Shown here: positions 17,457 to 46,823 of the stretch, in pieces
Layout of the letters: every line of letters starts with the position of its first letter
How positions within the stretch are numbered: position 1 is the first letter of the stretch
Assembly: GCF_907164915.1 (NCBI RefSeq)
Contig: NC_061870.1
Location: 2,756,273 to 2,820,272, forward strand
Direction of reading: 5' to 3'
DNA length: 64,000 nt
Origin: Impatiens glandulifera
Taxonomy: Eukaryota; Streptophyta; Magnoliopsida; Ericales; Balsaminaceae
Program-made: the position numbers and the translations under genes
Notes under the pieces: generated by a model
Seen by the model: only the letters and a program-made list of their open reading frames with translations
Database searches by the model: none
Told to the model about the DNA's origin: nothing

Positions 17457-18177
17457 GATAGCTTTGCATGAGATTTAAAGTTTCTTTCACTCAAGATCTC
17501 TAAGAACCCTAGATTTCGTTGTTTTTCTCTCTCAAAAACTCTTGTTCTTTGTGTGTCTGCTCGTATTCTTCTGAAAAATGGGAAACAAAAGAATCACGCT
17601 CGGTCACTGTACTTTGCAGGTGGATTTTCCTTCCGTTTACACGTTCGATCAACAAGAGGTGGTCGAAATGTTCAGATCCCTCGAGTATTCCGGTCTAGGA
17701 AAGTATCTGGGAGGGCCTTTCATCTTCCACGAGAAGGAAGTGAGGGAGTTATTCAAGTCTGCAACAATGGTGGATGATTCTATTGTGGAAACTGTAAATG
17801 GAATAAAAATCTCATTCAACGAGACGGTATATGCGAAGTTCTTTGAACTTCCATCAGAAGGGCATACGTTCAATTGACATCTATCAGCGGCGGTGACGGA
17901 GGAAATGAAGTCGGTCTTTTCTGCTGACGGCTTGGCGATTCGACTCAATGGAAGTAAGAAGGCTCTCAAACCACAGTTCATTTTACTGAATGATGTGGTG
18001 GCGAAAGCACTTCAAGGGAAGGCGGGTTCATTCAATCTCTACAGTCAAGATCGGTTTGACTATATGTCTGCCATCTCAAAGGGGATTCATGTCAACTAGG
18101 CCTTAACGCTGTTCCAGAATCTCTACTTTTCAATTAACCAGGAGAACAAGGAGAGCATTAACTTTGTTGCCCAAATA

Positions 18178-22888: not shown

Positions 22889-22900
22889 TCAAAAAGGGGG
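22889..22900 (+). promoter_or_regulatory. Polypurine tract of element X
   Basis: AAAAAGGGGGAAATTG lies directly before the 3' LTR start TGTTGGGTC, as expected for the plus-strand primer site. Confidence 0.75.
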
Positions 22901-22904
22901 AAAT

Positions 22905-24503: not shown

Positions 24504-25062
24504 AAATCTATCTTTGTCCTTCCATTGGAAAATTTGGTCTTAATTATCTAATTTAAATCTTGAATGTTCCGTTTAGTCACATTTACTTGGAAATAAATAT
24601 CTAAAAATGTAAAGTTGGATTACTAAAGTAGGAGAGACTGAGCTTAGTGGGAGACATGTGGACTAAGAGAAACTCTAATGGATCAATGGTTGTCCAGGAG
24701 TGGTCCGAGAGACCCAATACAAATTCAAATTTTGTAGTCCCACCAAATTAAAATAAATATAATAATTATACATTTTTATTAAAAACATATTTAAAAATAA
24801 AAATTATATATATAAAAAATATATCAAAAAATATATTAAAAATATATATTAAAAATATTAATATAATAAATGGTAAACAAACAATATACCATAATTTGAT
24901 TCAACAAAAATACTAGGAGCATTGGATGGTTGGCGCGACGAGCTCAAGAGCGTTGGATGGAGGGGTCGACGCTGATCACGGAGCTGGCCATTGGGAAACA
25001 TGAATCACTGCGTTAGCGTGCATGAATGCGTGATCTATATGTGCTGGACGTGGATGTTTAGA
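24504..25062. other. Spacer, no gene seen
   Basis: AT-rich sequence with a locally GC-richer patch (24905-25040). No family resemblance and no RNA gene was recognised. Confidence 0.5.
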
Positions 25063-26517: not shown

Positions 26518-26522
26518 ATTAT

Positions 26523-27467
26523 TGTTAGGATCTAGGTAGCCGCTGGAGGACCGGGGGTTGGACCGGTTAGCGGTTCTCACTCGAAGGGTGGTGGTTAATC
26601 CGGTTAGAGATTAACACCGGAGTTTCAATACTACACAACCTGTCACAAACTCTTGAACTAGGTTCAAGCGCGGAAGAGATTTGCTTTCAGGTTGAAGCGG
26701 CACACTTGTATGATAGGCAGAATCGGTTTTATATGATGGAGGTTTGAGATTTGATGGGTCGGCTTCAGTAATCTGAGATTCGGCTTGGATAGAGTTTAAG
26801 TTGGTTATAGCGGTACGGATCGGTTAGATAATGAAACCGGCAGACAGTAAATAACAAGACAGATTTTATGGATGATCGGAGATAAAGCTCCTACGTCACC
26901 CCTTCCTCTCGAAACCGCGAGAAGGATATTCACTAAGAAATACAAGTACAATCCGATCGAGACTTATTTCCTGCTCGATAACACTCTTACAATTTATACC
27001 GAAATTGTAAAACACACACTTTAACTTTAGCACTTAGGCTTTCTAGAACAGCACAGTCTTATCACTTGTAGAATAAATGCTCTTAGAATTTCTCACTTGT
27101 CTCACTGTATGTTGCTTGTCCCACTGTGTCGCGCATTTATTCTTCTTCAACTGCCCCTTTTATAGGTGAAATATGCCAACGGTCATATTTCACTTCCTTG
27201 AATCTGATTGGCTGAGCAGAGGTGCAGAGGTTCAGTGATTCAGTGATTCAGAGCATGCGGTCATCTTTTCAGACCTGGCGGTCAACCTTAGACCTGGCGG
27301 TCTGTCTCAGACCTGGCGGTCTGTTCTTCCGGTGTGTAAGACAAACCTGCTAGGTTTGTCTTTTACTCAATGTAGGCACTGTCTGGTAGACAGTTATCTG
27401 TACTTGGAAGATCCCCTTTCTAACTTATCCTGAAGTGGAAAGATCCTGTAGGACTGTTTTCTGCAGC
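26523..27467 (-). mobile_element. 3' LTR part of the composite, minus orientation
   Basis: The sequence is inverted relative to 30921-31866 and nearly identical. It includes the TATA box (27158-27164 as TTTTATA), the GACCGCCAGGTCT repeats and the two-hairpin leader (26865-26935). Its upstream side stops at CTGCAGC (27467), the same LTR position at which the plus copy starts. The first part of U3 is absent here. Confidence 0.85.
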
Positions 27468-27952
27468 TTGGTTTCGCGTGAGAATGAAAAAGAATGGCCG
27501 AGAGTCCCTTTTATAGGTGCGGTTTGGAAGCCCAACCGTCCCATCAACATTGGGCGGGAGTTTTCCCTCCAAGTTGAAAAGGCGGCAAACCATGGGCGGG
27601 AGTGAAAAGGCGCCAATCCGTGGGCGGTAAACCAGGGGGCGGGAGTTTTGGGCGGGAAATTTCCCTCCAAAAGTTTTGCTTTCGCCATTGATGACGCAAC
27701 CCTCTTTTGAGACCGATTGATGCGCCGGTTTCTAAATTTAACCGGTTAGTAGAGTTTTGCAATCTTTTGAGTTTAAGCGGGTTTTCTATGTGACTGGATA
27801 AGGGCGCGGTTATAATTTGAAGATGTTAACCGGTTACTTAGATAGATATTTAGGGTATTAAGAAGACCCGGTCATTTAAACTGAAATAAAATTTTATTCA
27901 AGAGACAATACAGAAAGAGAACTGAAAGATAGTTCGATGCAAAAATAGGCAT

Positions 27953-28660
27953 TTAAGAAGTAAAAACCATCTTGGAGAACTTCTCTTCCACCGCATCCGC
28001 ATCAAGGATGTTTGAGGGGGATGCCGGTGTACCCGGTCCAAATTCTGGCCGGTACCTGAGAATCAGCTTACTTATGTGAGGTGCATAGCCGAGACCTTTC
28101 TTGGTCAGCACCATGTTCTTCAGGTTTTGAAAGATGACCGCTGACCAATTGATGGTCGTTTTGCTGAAGATGTGGGTCATCATGTTGTAGGTATTCTTTG
28201 AGTACCGCTGATTTGGGGACTGACAAAGAATTGACCGAGTCACAATCTCAAGAAGGAGTTGAGCATTACGACCGAGGCGGGTTTTTAACCCATAGTTTTC
28301 CACTGGATCAAGGTTTCCAGAGAAGAGTAGTGCATAATAGAATGCATCAATTCCCTCCAGAGTTGGGAAATCAGAGAACCCTTCCGTGGGCAGATTGAGT
28401 AGGGAGGCAAATTCGGCTTCATCAAGCCAGAAGGTGTGGTCTCTTACCGTAGAGACGATGTAATCGCCCCTGATGCAGGCACTTCTGAAGAATGCATTGA
28501 CATCCTCAATCAGTATGGGACCGGATTCTTCGAGGAAGGTTCGAAGGCCGGTATCAATAAAGGATTCAAACATGGTTTTCTTTGCATGATTTCCGTCTCA
28601 TTCTTCCATACATGAGTTGAAATCGACGCTCAAAAAGTTTCCTAGGGTTCTGCTCGGCAT
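27953..28660 (-). pseudogene. Accessory gene b' (copy of b, one nonsense codon)
   Basis: Same length (708 nt) and nearly the same sequence as gene b at 38702-39409. The Trp codon of MEEWDGN is TGA here (28598-28600), leaving an internal start at MFESFIDTG (28573) that would give about 206 aa. Other differences are single residues (Asn for Lys in EDVNAFF, Arg for Gln in RYRPEF). Its TATA box and CT-repeat leader are preserved upstream near 28740 and 28690. It is probably inactive or truncated. Confidence 0.8.
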
Positions 28661-29113
28661 GTTTCTAAACTTTGATATTAGAGAGAGAGAGAGAGTTTAT
28701 GATTTGAGGTGTGTTGATTTCATGAGGAAAGCTCTCCTTTTATAGAACCGGTTTTGGAGGGAAAATGTTTGCATTGAGTGACATTTTTGTCTCTTTAGAG
28801 AAGAGAATCTTTATATTTCCAAGGTCATTGGGAAGAGTGTGCTTTTTGACTATTTGCGGTTCTCGAGGTAAATGTTTGTGGAAAGGTAACCAAGTTAGTT
28901 GGGTATTGATTACTTGTGTTAGTTGGGAGTTACCTCATTAAATAAAAATTCCTTTTTCATTAATGTGCTAACATAATGAAGATCAAAAGAAACCGAAGGA
29001 ATCATAAATAAAACCGAGGAAAGACATAAGAAAAGCCAAAGTGATCATGATGATGTTGGATAAGGATACACACGGTACGTGCAGCAAAATGACCGGGTGC
29101 AGGAAGAAGTGGC

Positions 29114-29875
29114 TTAATGTGCGTGGGAGTTGACGACACCGGTAGGGTTGTTACGACGGTTCCTTCTCCTCCAGGCCCTCTCAAACCGCTCATAGAAAGA
29201 GTCGGTTATCTCTTTGGTCAGCACTTGGGCTTGGTTCAGACCTTCTCCGGGACAGGTCGGAACACCTAGCTCCACAAGGAGGCAGCTTAGTTGGGGGATG
29301 AAGCCGATTGATCGGATGCCAACCATCCAGATGAGGACGTCAAACAGCACCCAGGACTAGTTCACCGGTGTACCGGTGACTATAGCCGCCATCATGTTGA
29401 AGGTTGAGGTACAGTAGGTATTGGTGACATCTCTCCCGAAAATACTCCTACCGATCACATCGTTGAGAAGCTGATATTCAGCTCTCAAGTGTGATTTTGT
29501 ACCGTGATCTTCAACCGGTTCGTCAGACCGTGCGAGGGTGAGGGAGATCTCGGCCTTTATGTTGGCCGGAACATCGAGATCTGTCAACCCTTGCTTTGGT
29601 AGGCTAAAGCACCGCGCAAAGTCTCTTTCGGTGAAATCAAAGACGATACCTCCTACTTTAGATTGGATGTGAGTTTCAAAGTGGGGGGTCCCCCTGAATA
29701 CCCTGGCGTGATAGAAAAACTCTAGTATTGATTCAGGATAGATGGTGTGTTTGTCGTCCAGGAAGTACCGAAGACCGGTATCTTCTAGGGATTTGATCAT
29801 CTTATACACCTCATAGTGCTCTGTGCTCGAGCAGGATTGAAAATTAACCTGAAGAATGTTGGGAAACTGAGACAT
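29114..29875 (-). pseudogene. Accessory gene a' (copy of a, one nonsense codon)
   Basis: This copy of gene a (37489-38250) begins MSQFPNILQVNFQSC and is open to TGTPVN. There the Trp codon is TAG (29357-29359); the gene-a copy reads TGTPVNWSRV. Sequence after the stop still matches gene a to its end. If translated it would yield a 172-aa protein lacking the C-terminal third. Confidence 0.82.
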
Positions 29876-30389
29876 TTTTGCCTTAGTGAGAGGATGATCT
29901 TTTGTCTTGTGAGTGTTTTGGTGAATGTTTGCTTCACTTAAATACTAGTTGGGGGGCTATCCTATTGTCCAGGTATTAAATGAGGTGATATCTATTAACT
30001 GCAGGATATAAGATATTGCATGAAATAGGCAGGTTTGCAGTCTAGGATGTTGGTCATAGACCTGGACTGTGAAAGATATCATCAAATCTTCACGTCTTTT
30101 TAGGTGCGACCAGTTTACTTTGAAAGGGTAATGTTTCAGAACAGATATCTTTAAACACTGATAATTATTCCACTTCTGTTTGAAATTCAAATAATCTAAG
30201 ATAGCCTGCTTCCAAACCGGTCAGTCATTAGTTGTTCATCCCGATGCGGTTATTTGGTGCATGCACCAAGTAACCGGTCGGTTTATTCTATCTGATAAAC
30301 TGGGCGGTTCTTCCACAAGTACCCTGAAAATTCGAAGTTCAGCAGTTTAGGAAGAATTACCGGTTTTGTCTGTCTGAATCGGTTTCCCT

Positions 30390-30842
30390 TTAAGCATCCT
30401 TAGGAAGGATCTGACTAATATCGGTTAAACCGAGAGTAAGTCTGAATTGAGAGAACTTAGCTTCCTGTAGAGGCTTCGTGAAGGTATCGGCTACTTGTTG
30501 ATCAGTCGATACGTATTCCAGCCGGATATGCTTCAGCGTGACATGTTCCCTAATGAAGTGGTGCCTTATGTCAATATTCTTGGTCCTAGAGTGGAGAACC
30601 GGATTGTAAGTTATTGCTATGGCACTCGTGTTGTCACAGAAAATCGGAGACTCTTCGGCTGTTACAACGAAGTCCTTCAGCTGTTGTTGGATCCAAAGTA
30701 ATTGTGAACAGCAGCTTCCGGCCGCCAGATATTCAGCTTCTGCAGTGGATGTGGCCACCGATGTCTGTTTCTTGCTATGCCATGAGACAAGCCGGTCACC
30801 TAGGAACTGACATGTTCCGCTGGTACTTTTCCTGTCAATCTT
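30390..30842 (-). pseudogene. RNase H tail of pol, minus copy
   Basis: It reads [20 protein letters not shown], then [12 protein letters not shown] and [11 protein letters not shown], ending LPKDA. It matches the end of pol in the plus copy. It is truncated at 30842, where the match to the plus copy (36523) stops abruptly, so no catalytic pol remains in this orientation. Confidence 0.8.
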
Positions 30843-30920
30843 TTCCGCGAAACCTAGAATGATACCAAAGGAACAGACTGAACACTTCCATATTCATATA
30901 AGTCTGAGGAAAGTCTGCAG
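30843..30920. other. 78-bp junction sequence inside the composite
   Basis: This lies between the minus pol tail and the plus LTR part. It matches neither the plus pol (36445-36522) nor the other LTR part. CTGCAG occurs at its right end and again immediately inside the LTR. It could be filler from end joining or a fragment of missing LTR. Confidence 0.5.
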
Positions 30921-31065
30921 GCTGCAGAAAACAGTCCTACATGATCTTTCCACTTCAAGATAAGTTAGAAAGGAGATCTTCCAAGTACAGACAACTGTCT
31001 ACCAGACAGTGCCTACATTGAGTAAAAGACAAACCTAGCAGGTTTGTCTTACACACCGGAAGAAC

Positions 31066-31135
31066 AGACCGCCAGGTCTGAGACAGACCGCCAGGTCTAA
31101 GGTTGACCGCCAGGTCTGAAAAGATGACCGCAGGC
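31066..31135 (+). repeat. GACCGCCAGGTCT tandem units in U3
   Basis: Three copies of GACCGCCAGGTCT plus a shortened fourth are spaced 18-20 bp apart, about 90-160 bp upstream of the LTR TATA box. Each is a near-palindrome (AGACC...GGTCT). The position suggests enhancer sites (inference). Confidence 0.65.
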
Positions 31136-31223
31136 TCTGAATCACTGAATCACTGAACCTCTGCACCTCTGCTCAGCCAATCAGATTCAAGGAAGTGAAA
31201 TATGACCGTTGGCATATTTCACC

Positions 31224-31230
31224 TATAAAA
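31224..31230 (+). promoter_or_regulatory. LTR TATA box of the composite
   Basis: TATAAAA sits in ACCTATAAAAGGGGC. The same box appears in reverse at 27158-27164 in the other LTR part. Transcription would start near 31255, with about 650 nt of leader before gag. Confidence 0.7.
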
Positions 31231-31454
31231 GGGGCAGTTGAAGAAGAACAAATGCGCGACACAGTGGGACAAGCAACATACAGTGAGACAAGTGAGAAAT
31301 TCTAAGAGCATTTATTCTACAAGTGATAAGACTGTGCTGTTCTAGAAAGCCTAAGTGCTAAAGTTAAAGTGTGTGTTTTACAATTTCGGTGTAAATTGTA
31401 AGAGTGTAATCGAGCAGGAAATAAGTGTCGATCGGATTGTACTTGTATTCCTTA

Positions 31455-31523
31455 ATGAATATCCTTCTCGCGGTTTCGAGAGGAAGGGGTGACGTAGGAG
31501 CTTTATCTCCGAACATCCATAAA
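31455..31523 (+). ncRNA. Conserved two-hairpin leader motif (composite LTR)
   Basis: Order: CCTT, inner stem CTCG/CGAG, bulge AGG, AAGG, linker GGGTGACGTA, then GGAG-loop-CTCC, then GAACATCCATAAA. Equivalent copies are at 19788-19850, 24223-24286, 26865-26935 (minus) and 51811-51888. The inner stem is CTCA/TGAG in the last, a compensating change. The motif lies downstream of the TATA box, so it would be in the RNA. The role (packaging, dimerisation, polyadenylation) is unknown. Confidence 0.55.
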
Positions 31524-31868
31524 ATCTGTCTTGTTATTTACTGTCTGCCGGTTTCATTATCTAACCGATCCGTACCGCTATAACCAACTTAAACTCTATC
31601 CAAGCCGAATCTCCAGATTACCGAAGCCGACCCATCAAATCTCAAACCTCCATCATATAAAACCGATTCTGCCTATCATACAAGTGTGCCGCTTCAACCT
31701 GAAAGCAAATCTCTTCCGCGCTTGAACCTAGTTCAAGGGTTTGTGACAGGTTGTGTAGTATTGAAACCCCGGTGTTAATCTCTAACCGGATTAACCACCA
31801 CCCTTCGAGTGAGAACTGCTAACCGGTCCAACCCCCGGTCCTCCAGCGGCTACCTAGATCCTAACAAT

Positions 31869-31880
31869 TGGTGTCAGAGC
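31869..31880 (+). promoter_or_regulatory. Primer-binding site of the composite (plus copy)
   Basis: TGGTGTCAGAGC lies two bases after the LTR end CCTAACA. It differs by one base from the usual plant copia initiator-Met site TGGTATCAGAGC. Confidence 0.8.
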
Positions 31881-31905
31881 AGTTAGTTTCAACACTCAAG
31901 CAAGC

Positions 31906-33717
31906 ATGTTTCAGGATAGGCCTTCAATGCTAGAAGGTGATGACTTTGCCAACTGGAAGGCACGGATGTATCTACACTTAATCACCTTGGACGATGAGAT
32001 GGAGTCCATTCTGGCCGAAGGACCGATAATTATTAATAAGGACATAAAGGAATGGACGGCTGAAGATAGAAGGAGAAACAACCTGGACAACCATGCAAGA
32101 AACCGGATCTCCAACAGCGTGGACAGAAACACATATTGCAAGATTAGATATTGCAAATCAGGAAAGGAGACATGGGACACCGTTATCCAGATATTTGAAG
32201 GAAATGAAAGAACGAAGGAAAACAAGATAATGGTAGCCACCCAGAAGTTTGAAAGCATGAAGATGAAACTAGGAGAAACGATGAAGGAATACAGTGACCG
32301 GTTCACTGGTGTGTTAGATGAGCTAGCAACACTTGGAAAGAGGTATGACAACAAAGAGGTTATCATGAAAGCATTGAGATCTCTTCCAAGTGCGTGGGAC
32401 ATAAAGACAATGGTAATGAGGGAATCAAACTGCCTAAACAAGATGAAGCTGCATGATGTATTCGAAGATCTTAAGGCATATGAGTTTGAAATGAGATCTA
32501 GAACTGAAGAGGAGGTCTCGGCCTCAACCTCAACCAGAGCATTGATCACACCCATAGAACCGGCTGCTTCTGCTCCAGCACCGATCAGAACCGCCGAACA
32601 GTTTACTGAGGATGCCATGGCTATGCTCGCACAGAAGTTTGGAAGGTTCATGAAAAGGAGCCAACCAACAAACTACAACTACGGCGATAAATCCAATGTA
32701 AGATTTTATAATTGTAATTGTTTGGGTCACTTTAAGTGGGAATGCAGGAAACCAAAGAGGGATACTCGGAAACCGGATAACCAAGATAACCGGAACAATT
32801 ATCAACAAATCGGTGAAGGAAGTGAAGTACCGAAAGCACTGATAGCCGATGATGGAGGAAGTCTATGGGCTCACAGTGACAGTGATGATGAACTTACATG
32901 CCTCATGGCAAATGAGGAACAGGTATTTGACTCTCCTTGCGACGAATTTACTAAAGATGAACTATACAATGCATTAAATGACATGGTAGAAGAATATAGG
33001 AACCTACTAGCCATGTTGCCTAAGAACATAAACATTAGAACCGATCCTATAATACCCATTCCGACAGAACCAGAGGTACCCATTATAACCGAACCTCCGG
33101 TTGTAAAACCTGAAGACACTCCTACTTTAGAAACCGAGTTAGATCCTAAGACCGAACAATCTAGTGAACCGACTAGAGAACTAACCGAGGAGGAAAATGC
33201 CCGACTTCAATATAAGATGGCTGCATATAAGAGATCTAGTGATATAGTAAAGAAAATGTGTAGTCATTACAGACATCCTCGTTGCAAATTTGGCCTAGGA
33301 TACACAGAGGATAGCTCCAAAGACCGAAAATACGTAGAGAAAGTAAGGCTTACAAGAGGTAACCTTCCCCTTATAAGATTCCTTAAAAGCTCCTGGACCG
33401 CTGAAGAAGAGTTGACCGCATACTATAGGGAAGAAAAGCTAAAATACGACTATGTTGGTCCAACAGAATCTGAGAAATGGCTTGACCCTGTGAAAAGAAA
33501 AGCCGAAATCCTCAAACATATGAAAGCCTTTCCTGAACCGCATAGGTCAAACCAAAGATCACCGAACCGAAGATCACCACCATTTAAGACTTTTATAGAA
33601 AAACCGAGATACACAAGACCAAGTGCCAAAAAGACGGTCAAAACCCTAGCAAAGAAGACCGTCCGGTTTGTCAAGGTTTGGATACCCAAGGGACTAATCG
33701 CATGTGGACCCAAGTAA
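31906..33717 (+). CDS. gag: Gag of the composite SIRE-like element
   Basis: A 603-aa open frame from ATG 31906, 26 bp after the primer-binding site. The N-terminal part is typical plant copia Gag (DDFANWKARMYLHL, then EGNERTKENKIMVATQKF, then LPSAWDIKTMVM). A zinc knuckle lies near residue 267 but reads FYNCNCLGHFKWEC, so the first zinc Cys is Phe; the homologue in element X has all four ligands. A Thr/Pro/Glu-rich stretch (about 380-430) and a basic tail follow, ending WIPKGLIACGPK. The stop lies at the same relative place as in element X's Gag, while the protease is encoded in a different frame just beyond. Gag would form the particle that packages element RNA. Confidence 0.85.
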   Translation: MFQDRPSMLEGDDFANWKARMYLHLITLDDEMESILAEGPIIINKDIKEWTAEDRRRNNLDNHARNRISNSVDRNTYCKIRYCKSGKETWDTVIQIFEGNERTKENKIMVATQKFESMKMKLGETMKEYSDRFTGVLDELATLGKRYDNKEVIMKALRSLPSAWDIKTMVMRESNCLNKMKLHDVFEDLKAYEFEMRSRTEEEVSASTSTRALITPIEPAASAPAPIRTAEQFTEDAMAMLAQKFGRFMKRSQPTNYNYGDKSNVRFYNCNCLGHFKWECRKPKRDTRKPDNQDNRNNYQQIGEGSEVPKALIADDGGSLWAHSDSDDELTCLMANEEQVFDSPCDEFTKDELYNALNDMVEEYRNLLAMLPKNINIRTDPIIPIPTEPEVPIITEPPVVKPEDTPTLETELDPKTEQSSEPTRELTEEENARLQYKMAAYKRSSDIVKKMCSHYRHPRCKFGLGYTEDSSKDRKYVEKVRLTRGNLPLIRFLKSSWTAEEELTAYYREEKLKYDYVGPTESEKWLDPVKRKAEILKHMKAFPEPHRSNQRSPNRRSPPFKTFIEKPRYTRPSAKKTVKTLAKKTVRFVKVWIPKGLIACGPK

Positions 33718-36700
33718 ATGTGGGTACCAAACAGTTGTAAATATGTATATTTTGCAGGATCCAAAGAAACGGCTAGGAAACTCTGAATGGTTCTTGGACA
33801 GCGGTTGCTCCAGGCACATGATCGGAAATAGCAATTTGCTAACCGATATCAGAACAGTAACCGGTGATCTAATCACCTTCGGTGACAACTCAAAAGGTAG
33901 AACTGTGGGCAAGGGTAAGATTGTCCATGGTAACCTAACTATTGATAATGTACTCTTAGTTGAAAACCTACGTTTTAACCTGCTTAGCATTAGTCAGATG
34001 TGTGATGCTGGATATACTGTAGAATTTCTTAAACATGCATGCTTAGTTAAGAACTCTCAAGGTATTGTACTGCTAACCGGAAATAGGATAGGTAATATCT
34101 ACAAGGTAGACTGGAAAACTAAAGTAGAATACCCTATATGCATGATAGCTAAGACTGATCAAACCTGATTATGGCATAAGAGATTAAACCATCTGAACAT
34201 GAAAACCTTAAACTATATTCGCGGTAAAAAGCTAGTTGAAGGCATCCCTGATATAGTATTTAATCAGGATAAGGTCTGCTCAGCATGTCAAATGGGTAAA
34301 CAAACTAGGTCAAACTTTAAGATTAAAGGAAATATCCAATCTAGTCGATGCTTAGATCTTCTTCATATGGACTTATTTGGACCTATTCAGGTTGTTAGCC
34401 TAGGAGGCATGCTTTACACCATGGTAGTTATTGATGATTATTCTAGATTTACATGGGTAATATTTCTACCATCTAAACGAGAAACCACATCAAACCTAAT
34501 TACACTTCTTAAACGCTTGCAAAATGAAAAATCAACTCGCATTAATAGCATTCGAAGTGATCGAGGTACCGAATTTACCAATAGTACCTTGACCGCATAT
34601 CTTGATGAATCCGGTATTAGACACGAGTTGTCTAGTGCTAGGACTCCTCAACAAAATGGCCTGGCCGAGAGAAGAAACCAGACTCTCAAAGAAGCCGCAA
34701 GGTCCATGATAGCCGATTCCGGCATTGCTCAGAAATTTTGGGCTGAAGCTATCAACACTGCATGTTATACACAAAATCGGTCTTTAATTAACAAGTTTCA
34801 CAACAAAACACCGTATGAGGTTTATTTTAACAGGGTTCCCAAAATTAAGCACCTCAAGATTTTCGGTTGTAAGTGTTATATACATATAAATGGTAAAACC
34901 CAACTCACTGCTTTTGATGCAAAAACCGATACCGGGATCATGCTAGGTTATTCAGCAGTGAGTAAGGCATATAGAGTGTATAATAATAGAACCTCAACCA
35001 TGGAGGAAACAATTCACGTTGTTTTCGATGAGTCGGTTGAAAGTAACACTGCATCATGCTTTGATCTACACAACAGATTGGAAAATAATAATATCCATTC
35101 TGATAGTGAAGATGAGACTCCGGTCTTCAGGCGGTTTGTCCATGACCAAATGGGTAGTATTGAAACCCAGCCAGATCAAGCTGTTCCACAACAGGAAGCT
35201 GACACTTCGGTTCAATCCGAGGAAGTTGGTCGGTATGAAAATCCTGCTCAGCCTACCGACATGTCTAGTCTTGATCAAGAAAACGGTAATTTGGTAGACA
35301 TCCCTGAACTGAATCTCAGAAGAAACAGTAAACATCCTCCTGAGCAAATTATAGGTGACCCTTCAGAACCTGTTCGAACTAGGCGTCAACTTCTGGAGGA
35401 ATACTTTAATTCCGCGTTTATATCCCAGATTGAGCCGAAAAGAATAGATGAAGCATTGTCAGATCCGGATTGGATCTTGGGAATGCAAGAAGAGCTAAAC
35501 CAGTTCGAGAGTAGTAAAGTCTGGTACCTAGTTCCTAGACCGAGAGATCAATCGGTCATAGGAACAAGATGGGTATTTAGAAATAAACTCAATGAGGACG
35601 GTTTGGTCACAAGGAACAAAGCCAAATTAGTGGCTCAAGGTTACAGGAAGAAGGCATTGATTTTGAAGAGTCATTTGCCCCTGTAGCTAGGATTGAAGCC
35701 ATTAGGATTTTTCTAGCCTTTGCTGCTTTCAAAAACTTTAAGGTTTTTCAAATGGATGTTAAAAGTGCATTTCTGAACGGTGACCTACGTGAAGAGGTGT
35801 ATGTTGAACAACCACCCGGTTTCAAAAACGCTGCATTTCCAAACCATGTATACCGGTTAAATAAAGCTTTATACGGTCTAAAGCAAGCACCTAGAGCCTG
35901 GTATGATACACTAACCGCATTTTTATTACAACATGATTTCACCATCGGTTCGGTGGATAAAACGCTGTTTAAATTCGAAAAGAAGGAACATATCCTACTT
36001 GTTCAAATCTATGTAGATGATATTATTTTCGGTTCCACTGATCCTAAGCTATGTGATAAATTCTCAAAAATGATGACTGACAAGTTTGAAATGAGTATGA
36101 TGGGAGAATTAAGTTTCTTCCTAGGTCTTCAGGTTAAGCAACTCAAAGAAGGAACATTCATTAGCCAACCTAAGTATACCAAGGAGCTACTAAAGAAGTT
36201 CGGAATGGACACATGCTCCTCAGCGGCTACTCCAATGAGCTCATCGATTAAATTGGACAGGGATGATGAGGGCCAATCGGTAGACCAGATCGCATACCGG
36301 GGCATGATCGGTTCTCTCCTATACTTGACAGCGAGTAGACCGGACATTCTGTTTGCAGTCGGTGTGTGTGGGAGATTCCAAGCAAATCCGAAACAGTCCC
36401 ACTACACAGCCGCAAAGAGGATACTGAAGTATCTAAAAGGCACACCTGATGTCGGTCTGTGGTATCCAAAGGATTCATCCTTTAACCTAACAAGTTATTC
36501 GGATGCAGACTATGCAGGGTGTAAGATTGACAGGAAAAGCACCAGCGGAACATGTCAGTTCCTAGGTGACCGGCTTGTCTCATGTCATAGCAAGAAACAG
36601 ACATCGGTGGCCACATCCACTGCAGAAGCTGAATATCTGGCGGCCGGAAGCTGCTGTTCACAATTACTTTGGATCCAACAACAGCTGAAGGACTTCGGTG

Positions 36701-36975
36701 TCACAGCCGAAGAGTCTCCGATTTTCTGTGACAACACGAGTGCCATAGCAATAACTTACAATCCGGTTCTCCACTCTAGGACCAAGCATATTGACATAAG
36801 GCACCACTTCATCAGGGAACATGTCACGCTGAAGCATATCCGGCTGGAATACGTATCGACTGATCAACAAGTAGCCGATATCTTCACGAAGCCTCTACAG
36901 GAAGCTAAGTTCTCTCAATTCAGACTTACTCTCGGTTTAACCGATATTAGTCAGATCCTTCCTAAGGATGCTTAA
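33704..36975 (+). pseudogene. pol: Pol polyprotein of the composite (one nonsense codon, one frameshift)
   Basis: Domains in copia order: protease (WFLDSGCSRHMIGN, near 33790), Gag-pre-integrase and zinc region (LWHKRLNHLN ... CSACQMGKQ, 34170-34310), integrase (DLFGP, VIDDYSRFTW, SDRGTEF, PQQNGLAERRNQ), reverse transcriptase ([32 protein letters not shown]) and RNase H ([35 protein letters not shown]). Breaks: TGA at 34166-34168 just before LWHKR, and a small deletion near 35645 (after LVAQGY) that shifts the frame. The pol frame differs from the gag frame. All catalytic blocks remain readable, so the damage is recent. It is not functional as a single protein. Confidence 0.85.
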
Positions 36976-37419
36976 AGGGAAACCGATTCAGACAGACAAA
37001 ACCGGTAATTCTTCCTAAACTGTTGAACTTCGAATTTTCAGGGTACTTGTGGAAGAACCGCCCAGTTTATCAGATAGAGTAAACCGACCGGTTACTTGGT
37101 GCATGCACCAAATAACCGCATCGGGATGAACAACTGATGACTGACCGGTTTGGAAGTAGGCTATCTTAGATTATTTGAATTTCAAACAGAAGTGGAATAA
37201 TTATCAGTGTTTAATGATATCTGTTCTGAAACATTACCCTTTCAAAGTAAACTGGTCGCACCTAAAAAGACGTGAAGATTTGATGATATCTTTCACAGTC
37301 CAGGTCTATGACCAACATCCTAGACTGCAAACCTGCCTATTTCATGCAATATCTTATATCCTGCAGTTAATAGATATCACCTCATTTAATACCTGGACAA
37401 TAGGATAGCCCCCAACTAG

Positions 37420-37426
37420 TATTTAA
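37420..37426 (+). promoter_or_regulatory. TATA box of accessory gene a
   Basis: TATTTAA lies 63-69 bp before the ATG of gene a, separated by an A/C-rich leader with no upstream ATG. Confidence 0.45.
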
Positions 37427-37488
37427 GTGAAGCAAACATTCACCAAAACACTCACAAGACAAAAGATCATCCTCTCACTAAGGCAAAA

Positions 37489-38250
37489 ATGTCTCAGTTT
37501 CCCAACATTCTTCAGGTTGATTTTCAATCCTGCTCGAGCACAGAGCACTATGAGGTGTATAAGATGATCAAATCCCTGGAAGATACCGGTCTTCGGTACT
37601 TCCTGGACGACAAACACACCATCTATCCTGAATCAATACTAGAGTTTTTCTATCACGCCAGGGTATTCAGGGGGACCCCCCACTTTGAAACTCACATCCA
37701 ATCTAAAGTGGGAGGTATCGTCTTTGATTTCACCGAAAGAGACTTTGCGCGGTGCTTTAGCCTGCCAAAGCAAGGGTTGACAGATCTCGATGTTCCGGCC
37801 AACATAAAGGCCGAGATCTCCCTCACCCTCGCACGGTCTGACGAACCGGTTGAAGATCACGGTACAAAATCACACTTGAGAGCTGAATATCAGCTTCTCA
37901 ACGATGTGATCGGTAGGAGTATCTTCGGGAGAGATGTCACCAATACCTACTGTACCTCAACCTTCAACATGATGGCGGCTATAGTCACCGGTACACCGGT
38001 GAACTGGTCCAGGGTGCTGTTTGACGTCCTCATCTGGATGGTTGGCATCCGATCAATCGGCTTCATCCCCCAACTAAGCTGCCTCCTTGTGGAGCTAGGT
38101 GTTCCGACCTGTCCCGGAGAAGGTCTGAACCAAGCCCAAGTGCTGACCAAAGAGATAACCGACTCTTTCTATGAGCGGTTTGAGAGGGCCTGGAGGAGAA
38201 GGAACCGTCGTAACAACCCTACCGGTGTCGTCAACTCCCACGCACATTAA
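37489..38250 (+). CDS. Accessory gene a of the composite (unknown function)
   Basis: An intact 253-aa frame, the first of three paralogous genes after pol. It begins MSQFPNILQVDFQSC. Shared family blocks: SLEDTGLRYFLDD (about 27-39), ILEFFYHARVF, IVFDFTERDFARCFSLPKQG, a middle S(D)-x-PVEDHGTKSHLRAEYQLLNDV block, and NMMAAIVTGTPVNWSRVLFD (about 160-180). The C-terminus is basic (RAWRRRNRRNN). No signal peptide or membrane segment is obvious. The protein resembles 'putative plant transposon protein' domains in memory only. It could act in the nucleus, but nothing here proves it. A closely matching copy, a', is broken. Confidence 0.75.
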   Translation: MSQFPNILQVDFQSCSSTEHYEVYKMIKSLEDTGLRYFLDDKHTIYPESILEFFYHARVFRGTPHFETHIQSKVGGIVFDFTERDFARCFSLPKQGLTDLDVPANIKAEISLTLARSDEPVEDHGTKSHLRAEYQLLNDVIGRSIFGRDVTNTYCTSTFNMMAAIVTGTPVNWSRVLFDVLIWMVGIRSIGFIPQLSCLLVELGVPTCPGEGLNQAQVLTKEITDSFYERFERAWRRRNRRNNPTGVVNSHAH

Positions 38251-38619
38251 GCCACTCCTTCCTGCACCCGGTCATTTTGCTGCACGTACCGGGTGTATCC
38301 TTATCCAACATCATCATGATCACTTCGGCTTTTCTTATGTCTTTCCTCGGTTTTATTTATGATTCCTTCGGTTTCTTTTGATCTTCATTATGTTAGCACA
38401 TTAATGAAAAAGGAATCTTTATTTAATGAGGTAACTCCCAACTAACACAAGTAATCAATACCCAACTAACTTGGTTACCTTTCCACAAACATTTACCTCG
38501 AGAACCGCAAATAGTCAAAAAGCACACTCTTCCCAATGACCTTGGAAATATAAAGATTCTCTTCTCTAAAGAGACAAAAATGTCACTCAATGCAAACATT
38601 TTCCCTCCAAAACCGGTTC

Positions 38620-38626
38620 TATAAAA
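38620..38626 (+). promoter_or_regulatory. TATA box of accessory gene b
   Basis: TATAAAA in GGTTCTATAAAAGGAGAGC lies 76-82 bp before the ATG of gene b. A (CT)n tract (38669-38682) sits in the leader, as in many plant promoters. Confidence 0.65.
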
Positions 38627-38701
38627 GGAGAGCTTTCCTCATGAAATCAACACACCTCAAATCATAAACTCTCTCTCTCTCTAATATCAAAGTTTAGAAA
38701 C

Positions 38702-39409
38702 ATGCCGAGCAGAACCCTAGGAAACTTTTTGAGCGTCGATTTCAACTCATGTATGGAAGAATGGGACGGAAATCATGCAAAGAAAACCATGTTTGAATCC
38801 TTTATTGATACCGGCCTTCGAACCTTCCTCGAAGAATCCGGTCCCATACTGATTGAGGATGTCAAGGCATTCTTCAGAAGTGCCTGCATCAGGGGCGATT
38901 ACATCGTCTCTACGGTAAGAGACCACACCTTCTGGCTTGATGAAGCCGAATTTGCCTCCCTACTCAATCTGCCCACGGAAGGGTTCTCTGATTTCCCAAC
39001 TCTGGAGGGAATTGATGCATTCTATTATGCACTACTCTTCTCTGGAAACCTTGATCCAGTGGAAAACTATGGGTTAAAAACCCGCCTCGGTCGTAATGCT
39101 CAACTCCTTCTTGAGATTGTGACTCGGTCAATTCTCTGTCAGTCCCCAAATCAGCGGTACTCAAAGAATACCTACAACATGATGACCCACATCTTCAGCA
39201 AAACGACCATCAATTGGTCAGCGGTCATCTTTCAAAACCTGAAGAACATGGTGCTGACCAAGAAAGGTCTCGGCTATGCACCTCACATAAGTAAGCTGAT
39301 TCTCAGGTACCAGCCAGAATTTGGACCGGGTACACCGGCATCCCCCTCAAACATTCTTGATGCGGATGCGGTGGAAGAGAAGTTCTCCAAGATGGTTTTT
39401 ACTTCTTAA
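38702..39409 (+). CDS. Accessory gene b of the composite (unknown function)
   Basis: An intact 235-aa frame starting MPSRTLGNFLSVDFNSCMEE. It is a paralogue of gene a, with corresponding blocks SFIDTGLRTFLEESG, IEDVKAFFRSACIRGDYIVS, EFASLLNLPTEGF, PVENYGLKTRLGRNAQLL and THIFSKTTINWSAVIFQNL. It ends EKFSKMVFTS. No enzymatic motif was recognised. It has its own TATA box and a CT-rich leader, and a polyadenylation-like AATAAA follows near 39463, so it appears to be a self-contained transcription unit. Confidence 0.75.
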   Translation: MPSRTLGNFLSVDFNSCMEEWDGNHAKKTMFESFIDTGLRTFLEESGPILIEDVKAFFRSACIRGDYIVSTVRDHTFWLDEAEFASLLNLPTEGFSDFPTLEGIDAFYYALLFSGNLDPVENYGLKTRLGRNAQLLLEIVTRSILCQSPNQRYSKNTYNMMTHIFSKTTINWSAVIFQNLKNMVLTKKGLGYAPHISKLILRYQPEFGPGTPASPSNILDADAVEEKFSKMVFTS

Positions 39410-39846
39410 ATGCCTATTTTCGCATCGAACTATCTTTCAGTTCTCTTTCTGTATTGTCTCTTGAATAAAATTTCATTTCAGTTTAAATGACCGGGTCTTC
39501 TTAATACCTTAAATATCTATCTAAGTAACCGGTTAACATCTTCAAATTATAACCGCGCCCTTATCCGGTCACATAGAAAACCCGCTTAAACTCAAAAGAT
39601 TGCAAAACTCTACTAACCGGTTAAATTTAGAAACCGGCGCATCAATCGGTCTCAAAAGAGGGTTGCGTCATCAATGGCGAAAGCAAAACTTTTGGAGGGA
39701 AATTTCCCGCCCAAAACTCCCGCCCCCTGGTTTACCGCCCACGGATTGGCGCCTTTTCACTCCCGCCCATGGTTTGCCGCCTTTTCAACTTGGAGGGAAA
39801 ACTCCCGCCCAATGTTGATGGGACGGTTGGGCTTCCAAACCGCACC

Positions 39847-39853
39847 TATAAAA
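39847..39853 (+). promoter_or_regulatory. TATA box of accessory gene c
   Basis: TATAAAA in CACCTATAAAAGGGAC lies 108-114 bp before the ATG of gene c, followed by a CT-rich leader (TTTCTCTCTCTAAGC). A preserved copy in the left arm has lost its gene. Confidence 0.65.
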
Positions 39854-39960
39854 GGGACTCTCGGCCATTCTTTTTCATTCTCACGCGAAACTACTTTCTC
39901 TCTCTAAGCTCTCAAAATCTCTGAAGCGGTTATTTCTCAAACTTTCTCAAACTCTCTAAG

Positions 39961-42573
39961 ATGGGGCGCGATTCGGCCTTGTTTAAGCACTTGACTCAGG
40001 TGGATTTCGAGGAAATCCGACAGAAAGGCACGTCCGAGGCAAAGGAGGTTATTGACCGGGTAGCCAATACCGGTCTGGAGTATTTTCTCGACGGTCCTCA
40101 TGTTCTATATAAAGAGGCGGTTGAGGAGTTTTTCAACACCGCAACTATCTCCGACGATAAGATCACCGCAACTGTATGCGGTACTGAAATAGAGCTCACC
40201 GAGGCATCGGTGGCAAAGAGCCTGCGCCTTCCAACAGCCGGCCAGGATGCAACGGCAGACATAGAGCTTAAGACTTTTGAGGCAGCTTGCCAGATACTCT
40301 CGGCGACTAAGGAGCCGATAAAAGTATCCGGTAGCAAATCAACGTTGAAACCGGAGTATATTCCAATCTGTGATATCTTCGCAAGGGCGATTCTGGCAAG
40401 GGGAGGAAACTACAGCAGCCTAACCAGGGACAAAATCAGGATGCTGGTCGGCCTGATAGAAGGAACAAAGGTTAACTGGGCAAAGGCAGTGTTCCACAAT
40501 TTAATGGAAATGGTGAAACCGGACTCAAACCGGTCATGGGGATACACCGTTCCTCTAGGTAAGATCTTCCTTCACCATAACATCAACATCGGACCCGGCG
40601 TCATCATCGCAACTAGAAGCCTCATCAGATCCAAACAATTCCTGGAAAGGAAGCAGCCGGCCCCCGGTTCCAAAGGTGGCCGAAAGAAGAAAGCTGGCAA
40701 GAAAGCGGCCTCAACGAAAGAAAAGGCCGAGAGCCAAGGGAAAGAGAAAGTAACTTTCTCGGAACCGCCGCAGCCAACGGAGGATGAAGAATCGGCTACC
40801 CCTTCTGAAAGAACCGATACAGAAAAGACCGATGACGAAAGATCGGCCAATGAAGAAGAGCATTCGGGCCAGAGCCCCGATAATGCCGGTCCTGACACAA
40901 ATCCTGAGACCACCGAGGGCGGTGAAGAGGATGGTGAAGAAGGCGGTAACGAAAGAGGTAACGAAGAAGAGAAGGAGGACGAAGAGGCAGAAGCGGATAG
41001 GGTAGCTCTCAAACTCCTAAAAGTCACTGAAAAGCGAGCCGGTAACATTGAGGAAATTTACCAGGAATGGCACGAGCACCGGTTCGGTAAACGGTATAGG
41101 CACATCCTACCGGGCTACACCGACGAGGAATGCTTCCAAAGAATGAAGGAAGTGGAGGACGTGATCATGGATCTCACTACATCCGATACCGTTGAAGAGG
41201 TACTAAACCGAACCTACCTATTAAAACCGCGAGCACTACTACGGAAGCTTATCAGACGCATCCGAAAGATTACGGCGAAGTTCGAAGAGGTGGGATCGGG
41301 GGACACCTTAACACCGCTGGTGTTGGAGAGGCTTGAAAAAGCCAAAGGAGACCTTATTCAAGAAATTGACCGGCTGGAGGCAATGTACGGTCAAAGGGAA
41401 ATACCGGTCTATACAGCTCCCCGGATTGATACAAGTCCAGATCATTGTCCAACACCTCCAAGGGCGAATTCGGCGACGGAGGAATCCGATGAAAGGGCGA
41501 ATCCTCCTCTCACCGGACAATCTACACTCAAACAACCGGATATCTCGGAACCGGAAGTCTCAGAACCGGGTGCTACAAAAGAATGGGTTGAGAGCCGTCT
41601 TCAAAGGTTTGAAGACTCAACAAAAGAACGGGTTGATAGCCGTATTCAAGAGTTCGAAGACTCCGAGGTTTTCCCTTTGAAGGAGAAATTCCAAAGAACC
41701 GTTTGCTCGGCACTCAAGTTCGCCAACACCACATGGCAACTTTTGGAGAGAACGAAAGAACGGTTCTCAGAAATCGATGAAGATCAACGGGAAGAGGCGG
41801 TTCTGCGCAGCAAACATCTTAGGCGAACCATGATTTTGGAAGATACGACTTCCGAGATAAAACAGGACTTTGGCCGGCTTGAAAGGGAGACCGATCAACG
41901 ATTGACGGAGGTTGCTAACGACCTGGTAGGCACAACACTCGGACGGGTCTCCGAACTTGAGAAGAAAAATGAGGGTCTCGAGGCCGAACTCAAGGCGCTT
42001 TCCGAACAAGTTGCCGAACTACTCAACGCAAAGATGAACGCGGACGCCGCGGCTGTAGAGGCTGATGCCCAAGCGGCTAAGAAGGTCCAGGATGAGCTGG
42101 ACGCCGAAGCTAGAAAAGAAAAGGAGGCACCACGATCATCGCAACTTACCGAGGAGGAAGAGGAAGCCGAGCGAATTCGAAGGGCAGAGGCTAAGTTTCC
42201 AGGACTTGCAAAGAAGGCAGCCGCTCAAGCTGCGAAGGATGCTGCGCGGTTGGAAAGGGAAAGTCAGAGGCTAGAAGGCTATGCAACCGCTAACAAAAAG
42301 AAGAAGGAAACCGCTGCCTCTTCGATACCGGCGAAACGGAAAAGAGAACCTTCGAAGAAAACTCAAGTGGCCGACCTACTGAATGAGGTCACTGAAACGG
42401 TCATTAAGAGTAGACCGCAGCAGACTACTCAAGACGAAGATGAGGTTGAAGAGCACCTGCGGTCCCGGTCTACAAGACAACGAGTCTCCGAACCGGCCAG
42501 TCAACCGCAACCAGCGAAGAAAAAGCGGAACAAGAATCTGATAGCCTGCTATGACTTCTCGGACTCGGAATAG
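39961..42573 (+). CDS. Accessory gene c of the composite: 870-aa domain plus coiled-coil protein
   Basis: Residues about 10-225 carry the domain shared with genes a and b (VANTGLEYFLDG, AVEEFFNTATISDDKITATV, SVAKSLRLPTAG, GSKSTLKPEYIPICDIFARA, GLIEGTKVNWAKAVFHNLME). A Lys-rich segment (about 233-260), a strongly acidic Glu/Asp-rich segment (about 270-345), a helical region, Pro/Ser/Thr-rich sequence (about 480-540) and long Glu/Lys/Ala coiled-coil stretches (about 600-770) follow. The end has nuclear-localisation-like clusters (PAKRKREPSKK and AKKKRNKN) and an acidic CYDFSDSE tail. The frame is intact across 2.6 kb, unlike pol, which argues for recent selection or youth. It resembles the accessory gene of element X. 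The function is unknown; a nuclear structural or targeting role is conjecture. Confidence 0.78.
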   Translation: MGRDSALFKHLTQVDFEEIRQKGTSEAKEVIDRVANTGLEYFLDGPHVLYKEAVEEFFNTATISDDKITATVCGTEIELTEASVAKSLRLPTAGQDATADIELKTFEAACQILSATKEPIKVSGSKSTLKPEYIPICDIFARAILARGGNYSSLTRDKIRMLVGLIEGTKVNWAKAVFHNLMEMVKPDSNRSWGYTVPLGKIFLHHNINIGPGVIIATRSLIRSKQFLERKQPAPGSKGGRKKKAGKKAASTKEKAESQGKEKVTFSEPPQPTEDEESATPSERTDTEKTDDERSANEEEHSGQSPDNAGPDTNPETTEGGEEDGEEGGNERGNEEEKEDEEAEADRVALKLLKVTEKRAGNIEEIYQEWHEHRFGKRYRHILPGYTDEECFQRMKEVEDVIMDLTTSDTVEEVLNRTYLLKPRALLRKLIRRIRKITAKFEEVGSGDTLTPLVLERLEKAKGDLIQEIDRLEAMYGQREIPVYTAPRIDTSPDHCPTPPRANSATEESDERANPPLTGQSTLKQPDISEPEVSEPGATKEWVESRLQRFEDSTKERVDSRIQEFEDSEVFPLKEKFQRTVCSALKFANTTWQLLERTKERFSEIDEDQREEAVLRSKHLRRTMILEDTTSEIKQDFGRLERETDQRLTEVANDLVGTTLGRVSELEKKNEGLEAELKALSEQVAELLNAKMNADAAAVEADAQAAKKVQDELDAEARKEKEAPRSSQLTEEEEEAERIRRAEAKFPGLAKKAAAQAAKDAARLERESQRLEGYATANKKKKETAASSIPAKRKREPSKKTQVADLLNEVTETVIKSRPQQTTQDEDEVEEHLRSRSTRQRVSEPASQPQPAKKKRNKNLIACYDFSDSE

Positions 42574-42688
42574 GGGCTCTCCTTCTCTTAATTATGCCTA
42601 TCTTAATATATATTATTGTCTATTTTCGGTTATCTATATATATATAAAGTTATTTTTGAAACCGGCCATCTTTTGCATCTCTACTTAG

Positions 42689-42892
42689 TTTTGATAATTT
42701 TAAATAAAATAATCAAAAAGGGAGAAATTGATAAGATAAAAGATAAACTTTTCCAAAATTTTTCTCAAATTCTTTCGAAAAATTCTCCTAAGTCAAGTTC
42801 AAAAATCCGGACAAACAAAACAACCGGCCTACGGTTGCAAACTTACATGATTTTGATAATTTTAAATAAAATAATCAAAAAGGGAGAAATTG
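42689..42892 (+). promoter_or_regulatory. Duplicated polypurine tract of the composite
   Basis: A 42-nt module containing ATAATCAAAAAGGGAGAAAT occurs at 42689-42730 and again at 42851-42892. Only the second is followed by the LTR start TGTTAGATAAAA. The first is followed by TTGATAAGATAAAAG, an imperfect echo of that start. Confidence 0.7.
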
Positions 42893-43239
42893 TTAGATAA
42901 AATTAGACCGGTTCAAATAAACCTAACTTAAATAAACCTTCCATGCAGGAACAAGGAACCGGACCGGACAAACAAAAGAACCGGCTAAGAAAACTAGCCG
43001 GTCAAGCTACTAAACCGACCAAGAATACTTGGAACATGACCGCACAAAGAAGGATCGACCAAAGCTTAAAACCGATCCTTCTTTGTGCGGTCATGTTCCA
43101 AGTATTCTTGGTCGGTTTAGTAGCTTGACCGGCTAGTTTTCTTAGCCGGTTCTTTTGTTTGTCCGGTCCGGTTCCTTGTTCCTGCATGGAAGGTTTATTT
43201 AAGTTAGGTTTATTTGAACCGGTCTAATTTTATCTAACA
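42891..43239. repeat. Perfect palindrome of two LTR starts (167-bp arms)
   Basis: 42891-43057 is the first 167 bp of the LTR (plus orientation) and 43073-43239 is its exact reverse complement. A 15-bp centre (43058-43072) separates them. The right arm is the 5' end of the minus-strand insertion and the left arm is the truncated 3' LTR of the plus copy. Confidence 0.92.
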
Positions 43240-43565
43240 ATTATATATAATAAATGATATAATATAATATATAATAAAATAAATAAATAATTATTTATTA
43301 TATATAATAAATTGTATATTATATATAATAAATAATAAAAAAATAAATTCGGTATTTGGTTCGGTTTTCGAGTTGAAACACCAAATCGAAAACCAATTCG
43401 AAAACCGGAAATGAAATTCGAATTCGATTTATTCGAATTCGGTGAATACAAATTTAATTTATTCGAATTTGGTGAATACAAATTCAATTTATTCGAATTC
43501 AGTAAATACGAATTCGATCGGATATTCGGACCAAATCAAACCAAATATTTAACGTCACTACTTAT
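43240..43565. repeat. TA-rich stretch and ATTCGAATT repeat
   Basis: 43245-43345 is nearly pure A/T with ATATATAATAAAT text. 43348-43550 belongs to the same ATTCGAATT/AACCGAA repeat family as 90-767. It includes the tandem TTTATTCGAATT(C/T)GGTGAATAC repeated three times. Confidence 0.6.
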
Positions 43566-44751: not shown

Positions 44752-46823
44752 TTAGCCATTATTGATATCCACACTTCCCTGACCACCAGTTTGGCGTGTT
44801 TTATCACGCCAATTCTCTCCCCACATCTTGGCTTCGGCAACAGCTCTTTCTCTGTTAAGCGTCTTTTCAGTATCACGAGGAGAATCATCTCTCTCCGACC
44901 CCCCTTCAGTACTATCCCACTTTCTTCCCGTTGACACCTCATTATCGTCATTCTTCGATATTCTACCCCCTCTTTCCTCTTTAAGTCTATTGATCGGGTC
45001 ATAAACTTGGTTAGACAAATACGAGAGGGCGGTTACCACATCCCCTATCAGAGGACGGGCAGCTGCCTGCTCCTGTATGCACATAGAAGCCACTGCTAAT
45101 GCTTGGTAAAGACCCCTCGTCGGAAAACGCCCTTCCAGCCGAGGATCTGATAGTTTCGCAATATTACGACGGTCGTTGAATAAGGGACGGGCCTGCACAA
45201 CAAAAGAAAATAGAAAATGTGATCATGTTCCTAGTGGAATTTATAGCAAGTTAGTGATCACTCACTCGTTCCAAAATGAGTATCATGCAATGCAATGTGA
45301 TATCAAAGAATGAAGAAGACAGATTAGTATTAGCGCCACTTCGAATCAAATGAATTTTCGTTTCAAAAAACAAATAAGATCATTTTTCTTTATTTTTTCG
45401 ACATTACCCATGCCACAAGATTCTGTTCTCCATTAGGTCTGGAGCTGTCAATGGCCTTTCTTCCCGTAATGAGCTCCAAGAAAACTACCCCAAAACTGTA
45501 AACGTCAGACTTGACAGTCAGCTGTCCGGTCATGGCATACTCAGGTGCACAATAGCCGTAGGTACCCATGACCCTGGTGGAGACATGTGATTTGTCACCC
45601 GTGGGTCCAAGCTTTGCGAGCCCGAAGTCTGAAAGTTTTGGATGGAAACCTTCTGCTAATAATATGTTAGACGACTTAAAGTCTCTATAAATGACTGGTG
45701 GGTTTGCCTTATCATGGAGATATTCCAAACCTCTGGCTGCACCTACAGCTATCTTCATTCTAGTATTCCAATCCAAGGCTTCATCTTCAGGACCAAGATC
45801 TACACGGATGGAGGGAGAAGCTAGCTCAAAAAAATAACTATCACAAAATATAAAAATAAATTACCATTGCAGTTTATATAACTTTATAATTACCAAGAAG
45901 GTGATCTTCCAAAGATCCTAATGCCATGTATTCATAAACTAAGAGCCGTTGATCTCCATCAGCACAATACCCAATCAAACTTACAAGATTAGGATGATGA
46001 AGAAGACTGAGCATTAGAACTTCCACAAGAAATTCTCTGTTACCCTGAAGCCCATTTCTATCCAATTGTTTAACAGCAATAACCTGGTGGAGAAACTTTG
46101 AATTTTCAGTAAGGTTCACATAGTCTTCTAAGTAGGAGGAGAAGTGAAGAAATACCTGCCCTGTGCTTTCAAGCAACCCTTTATACACACTTCCAAATCC
46201 ACCTTCACCTATGAAACACTCTGGCCTGAAATGCTTTGTTGCAGCCGAAAGCTCGCGCAAGGTGAATATATGCGCAGCAATATTCACTCCCTCCAGACCT
46301 ATGTTCGAAACCGATGATTCCCTCTTTGGTTCCGTACTGTTTCTTGCCTTCATTCTATCTGCTCCTGTAAAAGTAATCACATATAAAAGCCATGAACCAA
46401 ATGAAAATTTAACAAAATCATCAAAGGTCCATAATTCTTCTTGTTTGCATACTAATTATCAACAATTGTTCTGGATTCCAATTTAACAACCTCAAAGAAG
46501 ATTCTCTATCAAAATGACCTAGACTAAACCTTACTCATATCCAAAATCCAGACATAACTGTACTACGAAGATTTAATTCAATTCAATTCAATTCAATTCT
46601 ATTAGAAACAGATCAGATCAGATCAAACAGAGATTAATTGCTCATAAGGGGAAGGAGAGAAACTTCTTGTACTGAACCAACAAGAAATGAGACACTGACC
46701 TGAGGATAATCTTGAAACGTTGGAAGGAACCGTCGAATGGATATCCTCCCGATCATTCCTCAGTTTACTATGTGTATTGAGCATTACCTCCTCCTTCGAG
46801 TCGAAACAAGGAAAACAACCCAT
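44752..46823 (-). CDS. Receptor-like cytoplasmic kinase, subfamily VII (PBL27-like), 5 exons
   Basis: A membrane-anchored Ser/Thr kinase; this subfamily relays signals from pattern-recognition receptors to MAP-kinase cascades. Exons (minus): 46823-46700, 46364-46156, 46083-45894, 45799-45408, 45192-44752. All introns are GT-AG; 1356 nt gives 451 aa. The start is the ATG of MGCFPCF, giving Gly2 for myristoylation and Cys3/Cys6 for palmitoylation. Kinase motifs: GEGGFGSV (94-101), Lys116 (IAVK), YRDFKSSN (212-219) and DFG (232-234). The activation segment is followed by [39 protein letters not shown] is typical of the PBL27 group. A Ser/Asp/Glu/Arg-rich tail of about 80 residues follows the kinase domain. 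It looks functional. The paralogue within subfamily VII is not certain. Confidence 0.92.

Follow-up and report, generated by a model that had tools for sequence, protein, structure and literature searches.

Two opposed, closely related LTR-retrotransposon copies within a single target site duplication in Impatiens glandulifera

LTR retrotransposons nested within members of their own family have been described as 'autoinsertions', reverse orientation included (PMC6911290), and complex elements with three LTRs are likewise known (PMC5379124); as far as the accessible text of these reports goes, the opposed composite within one duplication that we describe here is a variant of such arrangements. 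It resembles autoinsertions in that a copy lies within what would be an older member of the same family, but differs from those set out in the available sections of that paper (PMC6911290) in its truncated inner LTRs, in the absence of a duplication belonging to the inner copy and in the discontinuity of the outer one. The three-LTR elements also have more than two LTR parts per unit; the types described are unidirectional and the word 'inverted' is absent from the main text of the report (PMC5379124), whereas the parts here are opposed. Capture of foreign or retrotransposon DNA at double-strand breaks, in the portions of the two papers at hand (PMC10923293, PMC4516963), gives truncated ends, short microhomology and templated filler, which the scars here resemble, although the piece that would have been captured in this case amounts to almost an entire element, lying within another member of the same family. 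Fold-back inversions at breaks share inverted arms, a short loop and short microhomology with this locus, to judge from the accessible part of PMC11724301; self fold-back would, however, continue into the polypurine tract and the interior, whereas the arm here stops at LTR position 1 and is followed by the duplication. Retroviral autointegration, according to the available text of PMC2644782, produces an inverted internal arrangement of cDNA much as seen here, but the inner junctions at this locus are without an LTR terminus. The same composite was not recognised in the literature by title or by the start of the abstract, in a survey that covered subscription journals thinly and from which we make no claim of absence.

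We analysed a window of 64,000 nucleotides (G000:C9:2756273-2820272) and searched the genome from which it comes (654 Mb, 1110 contigs). The rearranged unit occupies 26523-43239 (16,717 bp) and is bounded on both sides by the target site duplication ATTAT (26518-26522 on the left and 43240-43244 on the right), with minus-strand LTR edges outermost, as the initial annotation had described. When the left and right flanks were searched separately, the matches besides the window were found to be an old dispersed repeat of roughly 65-91% identity, and several left-flank and right-flank matches adjoin each other in the genome. Three of these places were fetched (L079-L081; C3:3380640-3380860, C5:35919690-35919900 and C3:43263140-43263380), which are paralogs within the genome, not alleles. 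Alignment revealed that in 3/3 the flanks were joined directly with a single ATTAT, at 82.7-84.9% identity. Since all the fetched empty sites join the flanks in this way, both outer ends come from one integration, and the outside of the unit is a single LTR-retrotransposon insertion. The proposal of one outer duplication was thereby upheld, and the empty-site comparison suggested along with it, run here on paralogs, gave no sign of two insertions.

Alignment to full LTRs, with positions numbered on the 1339-bp LTR of copy L015, revealed how the two copies are arranged. The outer copy lies on the minus strand and comprises its 3' LTR from position 383 to the end (26523-27470) and an interior starting in the RNase H region and running beyond the second extra ORF (27471-30842), 98.96% identical to plus 36523-39891. 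A filler of 13 nt (30843-30855) leads into the inner copy on the plus strand, which consists of a 5' LTR from position 321 to the end (30856-31866), an interior recognised by its ORFs and Pfam matches, with a polypurine tract at its end (31867-42890), and a 3' LTR head corresponding to positions 1-186 of L015 (42891-43074). The unit is completed by the 5' LTR head of the outer copy (positions 1-170; 43072-43239, minus), which has CCG in common with the plus head. Across the inner copy the outer one is thus discontinuous: its sequence breaks off at LTR position 170 and resumes in the RNase H region. A deletion at 27470/27471 has also cost the outer copy some 3 kb of interior together with positions 1-382 of its 3' LTR. 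The inner copy is without two full LTRs, starting at LTR position 321 and ending at 186, and at its inner edges neither a target duplication of its own nor an LTR terminus was found. It does hold 39892-42890 and the LTR head, both missing from the minus 3' end.

Most of the anatomy given in the initial annotation was confirmed: the 3.37-kb inverted arms, the opposed LTR parts (tails at 26521-27470 and 30918-31868, 98.1% identical) and the palindromic LTR head (42888-43057 and 43073-43242), which is 100% identical over 170 nt, the chance of zero differences in 167 bp of the heads being 0.15. Its plus-strand interior stood as well, with the limits moved from 30921-43057 to 30856-43074 by the full LTRs, and its junction coordinates were close, but the deletion at 27470/27471 was missing from its map. 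We found that the 65 bp ahead of 30921 belong to an LTR, that of the plus copy, and that the 15-nt 'loop' between the head arms is the inner copy's own LTR in plus orientation. The 78 bp between the arms were also considered as foreign DNA, which was ruled out, as they are LTR except for the 13 nt.

The plus strand of the inner copy carries gag (31858-33717), a pol with broken frames (33698-36975) and, downstream of pol, three extra sense ORFs (37420-38250, 38645-39409 and 39925-42573) of 276, 254 and 882 codons from stop to stop. Matches to PF14223 (gag), PF00665 (integrase) and PF07727 (reverse transcriptase) were all over the Pfam cut-offs, and their order, gag, integrase, reverse transcriptase, is that of a Ty1/copia family. 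Each of the three extra ORFs matched Transposase_32 (PF20167) under the Pfam cut-off, and a protein search with the second gave no relatives at E≤0.001 among 283 candidates. Three pattern matches to the reverse transcriptase were obtained in viral_contigs, none of which was confirmed as a relative. Sireviruses have their polypurine tract in multiple copies, according to the accessible text of PMC2829016; the Sirevirus polypurine octamer AGGGGGAG was absent from the interior, so that the octamer gives no Sirevirus assignment here, and a variant, AAAGGGAG, is present at 41882, 42717 and 42879, the last two being close to the LTR. Nine full LTRs from other copies of the family measured 1259-1339 bp, and 4033 first-look LTR candidates across the genome indicated a high-copy family.

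Several other features lie in the same window. The plus strand at 54202-58948 holds a further Ty1/copia element; its LTRs are 97.3% identical, and it has a 1126-codon ORF and an apparent CTTAT duplication. A hexanucleotide repeat of about 519 bp, perfect or nearly so, is found at 59886-60404, and a minus-strand frame over it (59707-60528) gives an extended Gly-Glu run. At 14578-24504 there seems to be another region of this kind in a more decayed state, with a related copia gag (14740-16149) and with imperfect repeats that lie at 18.3-19.1 and 23.0-24.0 kb. Some 1.5 kb beyond the right end of the unit, exon-like ORFs on the minus strand (44752-46455) suggest a putative plant protein kinase gene.

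The inner junctions were then used as queries against the genome, the best 40 places being scored in each search. Among these, the window alone spans the join at 27470/27471 (J_left), the filler junction (J_mid) and, besides the palindrome's own reverse match, the turn between the heads (J_right); the remaining scored places match one side of the junction or, in the J_right search, the two sides separately. The search for the same junctions elsewhere that the initial annotation had proposed thus yielded none but the window among the best 40 scored each time, which is strong but incomplete evidence that the rearranged form has not multiplied in the genome. Opposed LTRs 12 kb apart at C4:35867120/35879188 were considered as a second case; on mapping, the intervening stretch proved to lack any interior of the family, and the case was dropped.

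J_left is a direct join without inserted letters; a 4-nt insertion, CAAG, was ruled out there, as these letters align to LTR 383-386 with one substitution. At J_right the turn takes place at 3 nt (CCG) common to both heads, and at J_mid 9 of the 13 nt of filler (CGCGAAACC) equal the sequence across J_left; the match of the filler to the other two junctions was equalled by 156/20,000 random element 13-mers. All four LTR breakpoints fall within 213 bp (chance 0.014), and two of them are separated by some 16 nt (about 0.02 by chance, calculated for a spacing of 15), a clustering that would follow if the deletions had been steered by LTRs facing each other in inverted orientation. The CCG microhomology and the 9-nt match within the 13-nt filler give the scars the look of end joining. 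In Arabidopsis, joining by polymerase theta is marked by short microhomology and templated filler, and microhomology averages 2.4 bp at one T-DNA end, as stated in the available sections of PMC10923293. The available text of PMC2829016 gives CGG-CCG symmetry as the core of a repeated motif in Sirevirus LTRs, and genome instability at palindromes is documented in the part of PMC3315005 at hand.

An LTR terminus was found at none of the three inner junctions (0/3). We reject autointegration on this ground, and the self-integration of cDNA put forward in the initial annotation was not borne out. Nor can the inner 3' LTR simply have folded back on itself, as the arm stops at LTR position 1 and meets the ATTAT site. 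We considered whether two separate copies had been mis-joined during assembly, for which the high copy number of the family would give occasion. Such an artefact is very unlikely: the joins sit at short microhomology and filler, not at long identical repeats, the outer ends have one duplication confirmed by empty sites, and all scars lie within one 38.8-Mb contig, where a mis-join in long repeats would be expected to look different.

The minus and plus copies are mutual nearest relatives among the places scored. The minus piece 28682-29955 matched the plus arm at 99% and the next place at 94% (best 40 of 2343 first-look candidates), and the identity of the pair was 99.05% in an alignment with eight other copies. 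In an alignment with 15 other copies, from which the partial or split matches L010 and L068 were excluded, the arms formed a clade with support 1.0, the nearest outgroups to the plus arm being 94.6% and 94.0% identical. LTR tails were compared in the same manner (26 found, 20 distinct used): the two tails of the pair were 98.3% identical here, and the next-closest tail reached at most 97.0% identity to the pair, which had a support of 0.89 and one private letter in common, compared with 2-10 in ordinary LTR pairs of one element.

The changes that separate the copies were distributed unequally in the arms. Polarity was counted with gapped columns excluded; of the 32 arm substitutions, the two nearest outgroups placed 24 in the minus arm and 5 in the plus arm and left 3 ambiguous (p=0.0005); a strict rule gave 18 versus 4, with 10 ambiguous (p=0.004), and the branch lengths were 0.0084 (minus) and 0.0015 (plus). 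After nine further copies had been added, 11/11 differences within 37401-38560 were minus-derived. The minus letter was found in the 15 outgroups at 3-7 of the 32 sites each, no outgroup being markedly higher. The LTR tails were nearly even, with 9 derived changes on the minus and 7 on the plus side by majority, branches of 0.0099 and 0.0077 and a divergence resembling that of ordinary LTR pairs. Pooling arms and tails gave 33 minus versus 12 plus changes (p=0.0025; heterogeneity p=0.08). Within the minus arm (27471-30842) the transitions C>T and G>A also tend to follow one another in runs of the same strand type (6 runs, 17 transitions; one-sided p=0.07), possibly reflecting damage to single-stranded DNA; these 17 transitions were listed by hand, two with ambiguous polarity, and were given no weight when the histories were judged.

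Because one source predicts equality, the unequal arms speak against one element that had inverted itself. The description of the retrotransposon as 'half inverted within itself' therefore fits poorly, and the plus copy also has stretches of interior and LTR without a counterpart in the minus copy. Even arm change is equally predicted, against the 24 versus 5 observed, by an inverted duplication in place, in which sister-chromatid switching during replication or repair would have inserted an inverted copy of the body into one integrated minus element. The single ATTAT duplication, the mutual nearest-relative status, the clustered LTR breakpoints and tails diverged like an ordinary LTR pair would all fit such an event. 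With 39892-42890 and the LTR head present in the plus copy, the J_left deletion would have had to come later or simultaneously, and a late J_left is at odds with a filler apparently copied from it, so we regard this course as improbable.

Two close co-packaged RNAs or cDNAs may instead have been joined in inverted orientation, in the course of reverse transcription or later, and integrated once by integrase. This would account for the mutual nearest-relative status, the single duplication, the head arm stopping exactly at LTR position 1, the identical heads and the even tails, and it fits the two polypurine copies by the LTR: a plus strand primed at 42717 could have entered the LTR, switched at CCG and run off the end, and the target of the switch could have been the displaced plus strand starting at LTR position 1, giving a natural integrase end. 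A one-piece molecule from one source would have even arms, however, so that two unequal sources are required, and no copy exceeds 94% among the best 40 scored; three switches per molecule, together with filler templated by a different junction, would be more usual for end joining. Recombination between two packaged genomes is a possible origin, and we give integration as one piece a substantial, if not the largest, share of the probability. Its specific form, a reverse-transcription chimera of co-packaged sister genomes with an inverted segment, a palindromic LTR end made via the displaced plus strand and a single 16.7-kb integration, seems to us somewhat unlikely.

We tentatively favour the reading that an older minus copy had a younger, opposed near-sister placed inside it. 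Starting from the observed anatomy, nearest-relative status and unequal arm change, we infer an order of events and the enzymes involved. A minus-strand Ty1/copia copy would have integrated, creating the ATTAT duplication, and would have lost part of its 3' end at J_left; the near-sister would then have landed inside it in the opposite orientation, either as a normal insertion or through its cDNA being captured at a double-strand break. LTRs and arms that faced one another would have created large inverted repeats, and polymerase-theta-like end joining may have closed the breaks, trimming both inner LTRs, deleting everything in the outer copy between about LTR position 171 and the RNase H region and leaving the 3-bp microhomology on the right and a filler partly templated by J_left in the middle. 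Such repair deletions would have wiped out any inner target duplication.

Because the plus copy holds 39892-42890 and the LTR head, it was not templated by the minus copy after J_left, and two separate molecules are favoured because the arms are unequal and the 3' part of the plus copy is intact. The mutual nearest-relative status of the copies and the even LTR tails speak in turn for models with the two joined from the outset. The single outer insertion, the arm asymmetry, the filler match and the clustered LTR breakpoints argue for the two-step history. Against it stand the rarity with which a chance insertion strikes its own closest sister, the even tails (9 versus 7) with their single private letter in common, the absent inner duplication and the identical heads. 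A further weakness is that a rate difference, between an active source and a silent copy, has to be assumed, because a strict clock gives equal paths. The initial annotation had offered integration as one piece or nesting with a lost duplication; the single duplication common to both held, and the nested or captured copy is preferred. The probabilities that we attach to these histories are judgements, and a very small share was given to none of them.

Since the outer duplication, the empty sites, the three scars and the polarised differences are all readable, the locus allows a concrete test of whether composites of this type form before integration, during reverse transcription, or after it, by nesting and end joining. 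LTR composites with inverted arms could, moreover, yield long hairpin transcripts, which may give rise to silencing signals.
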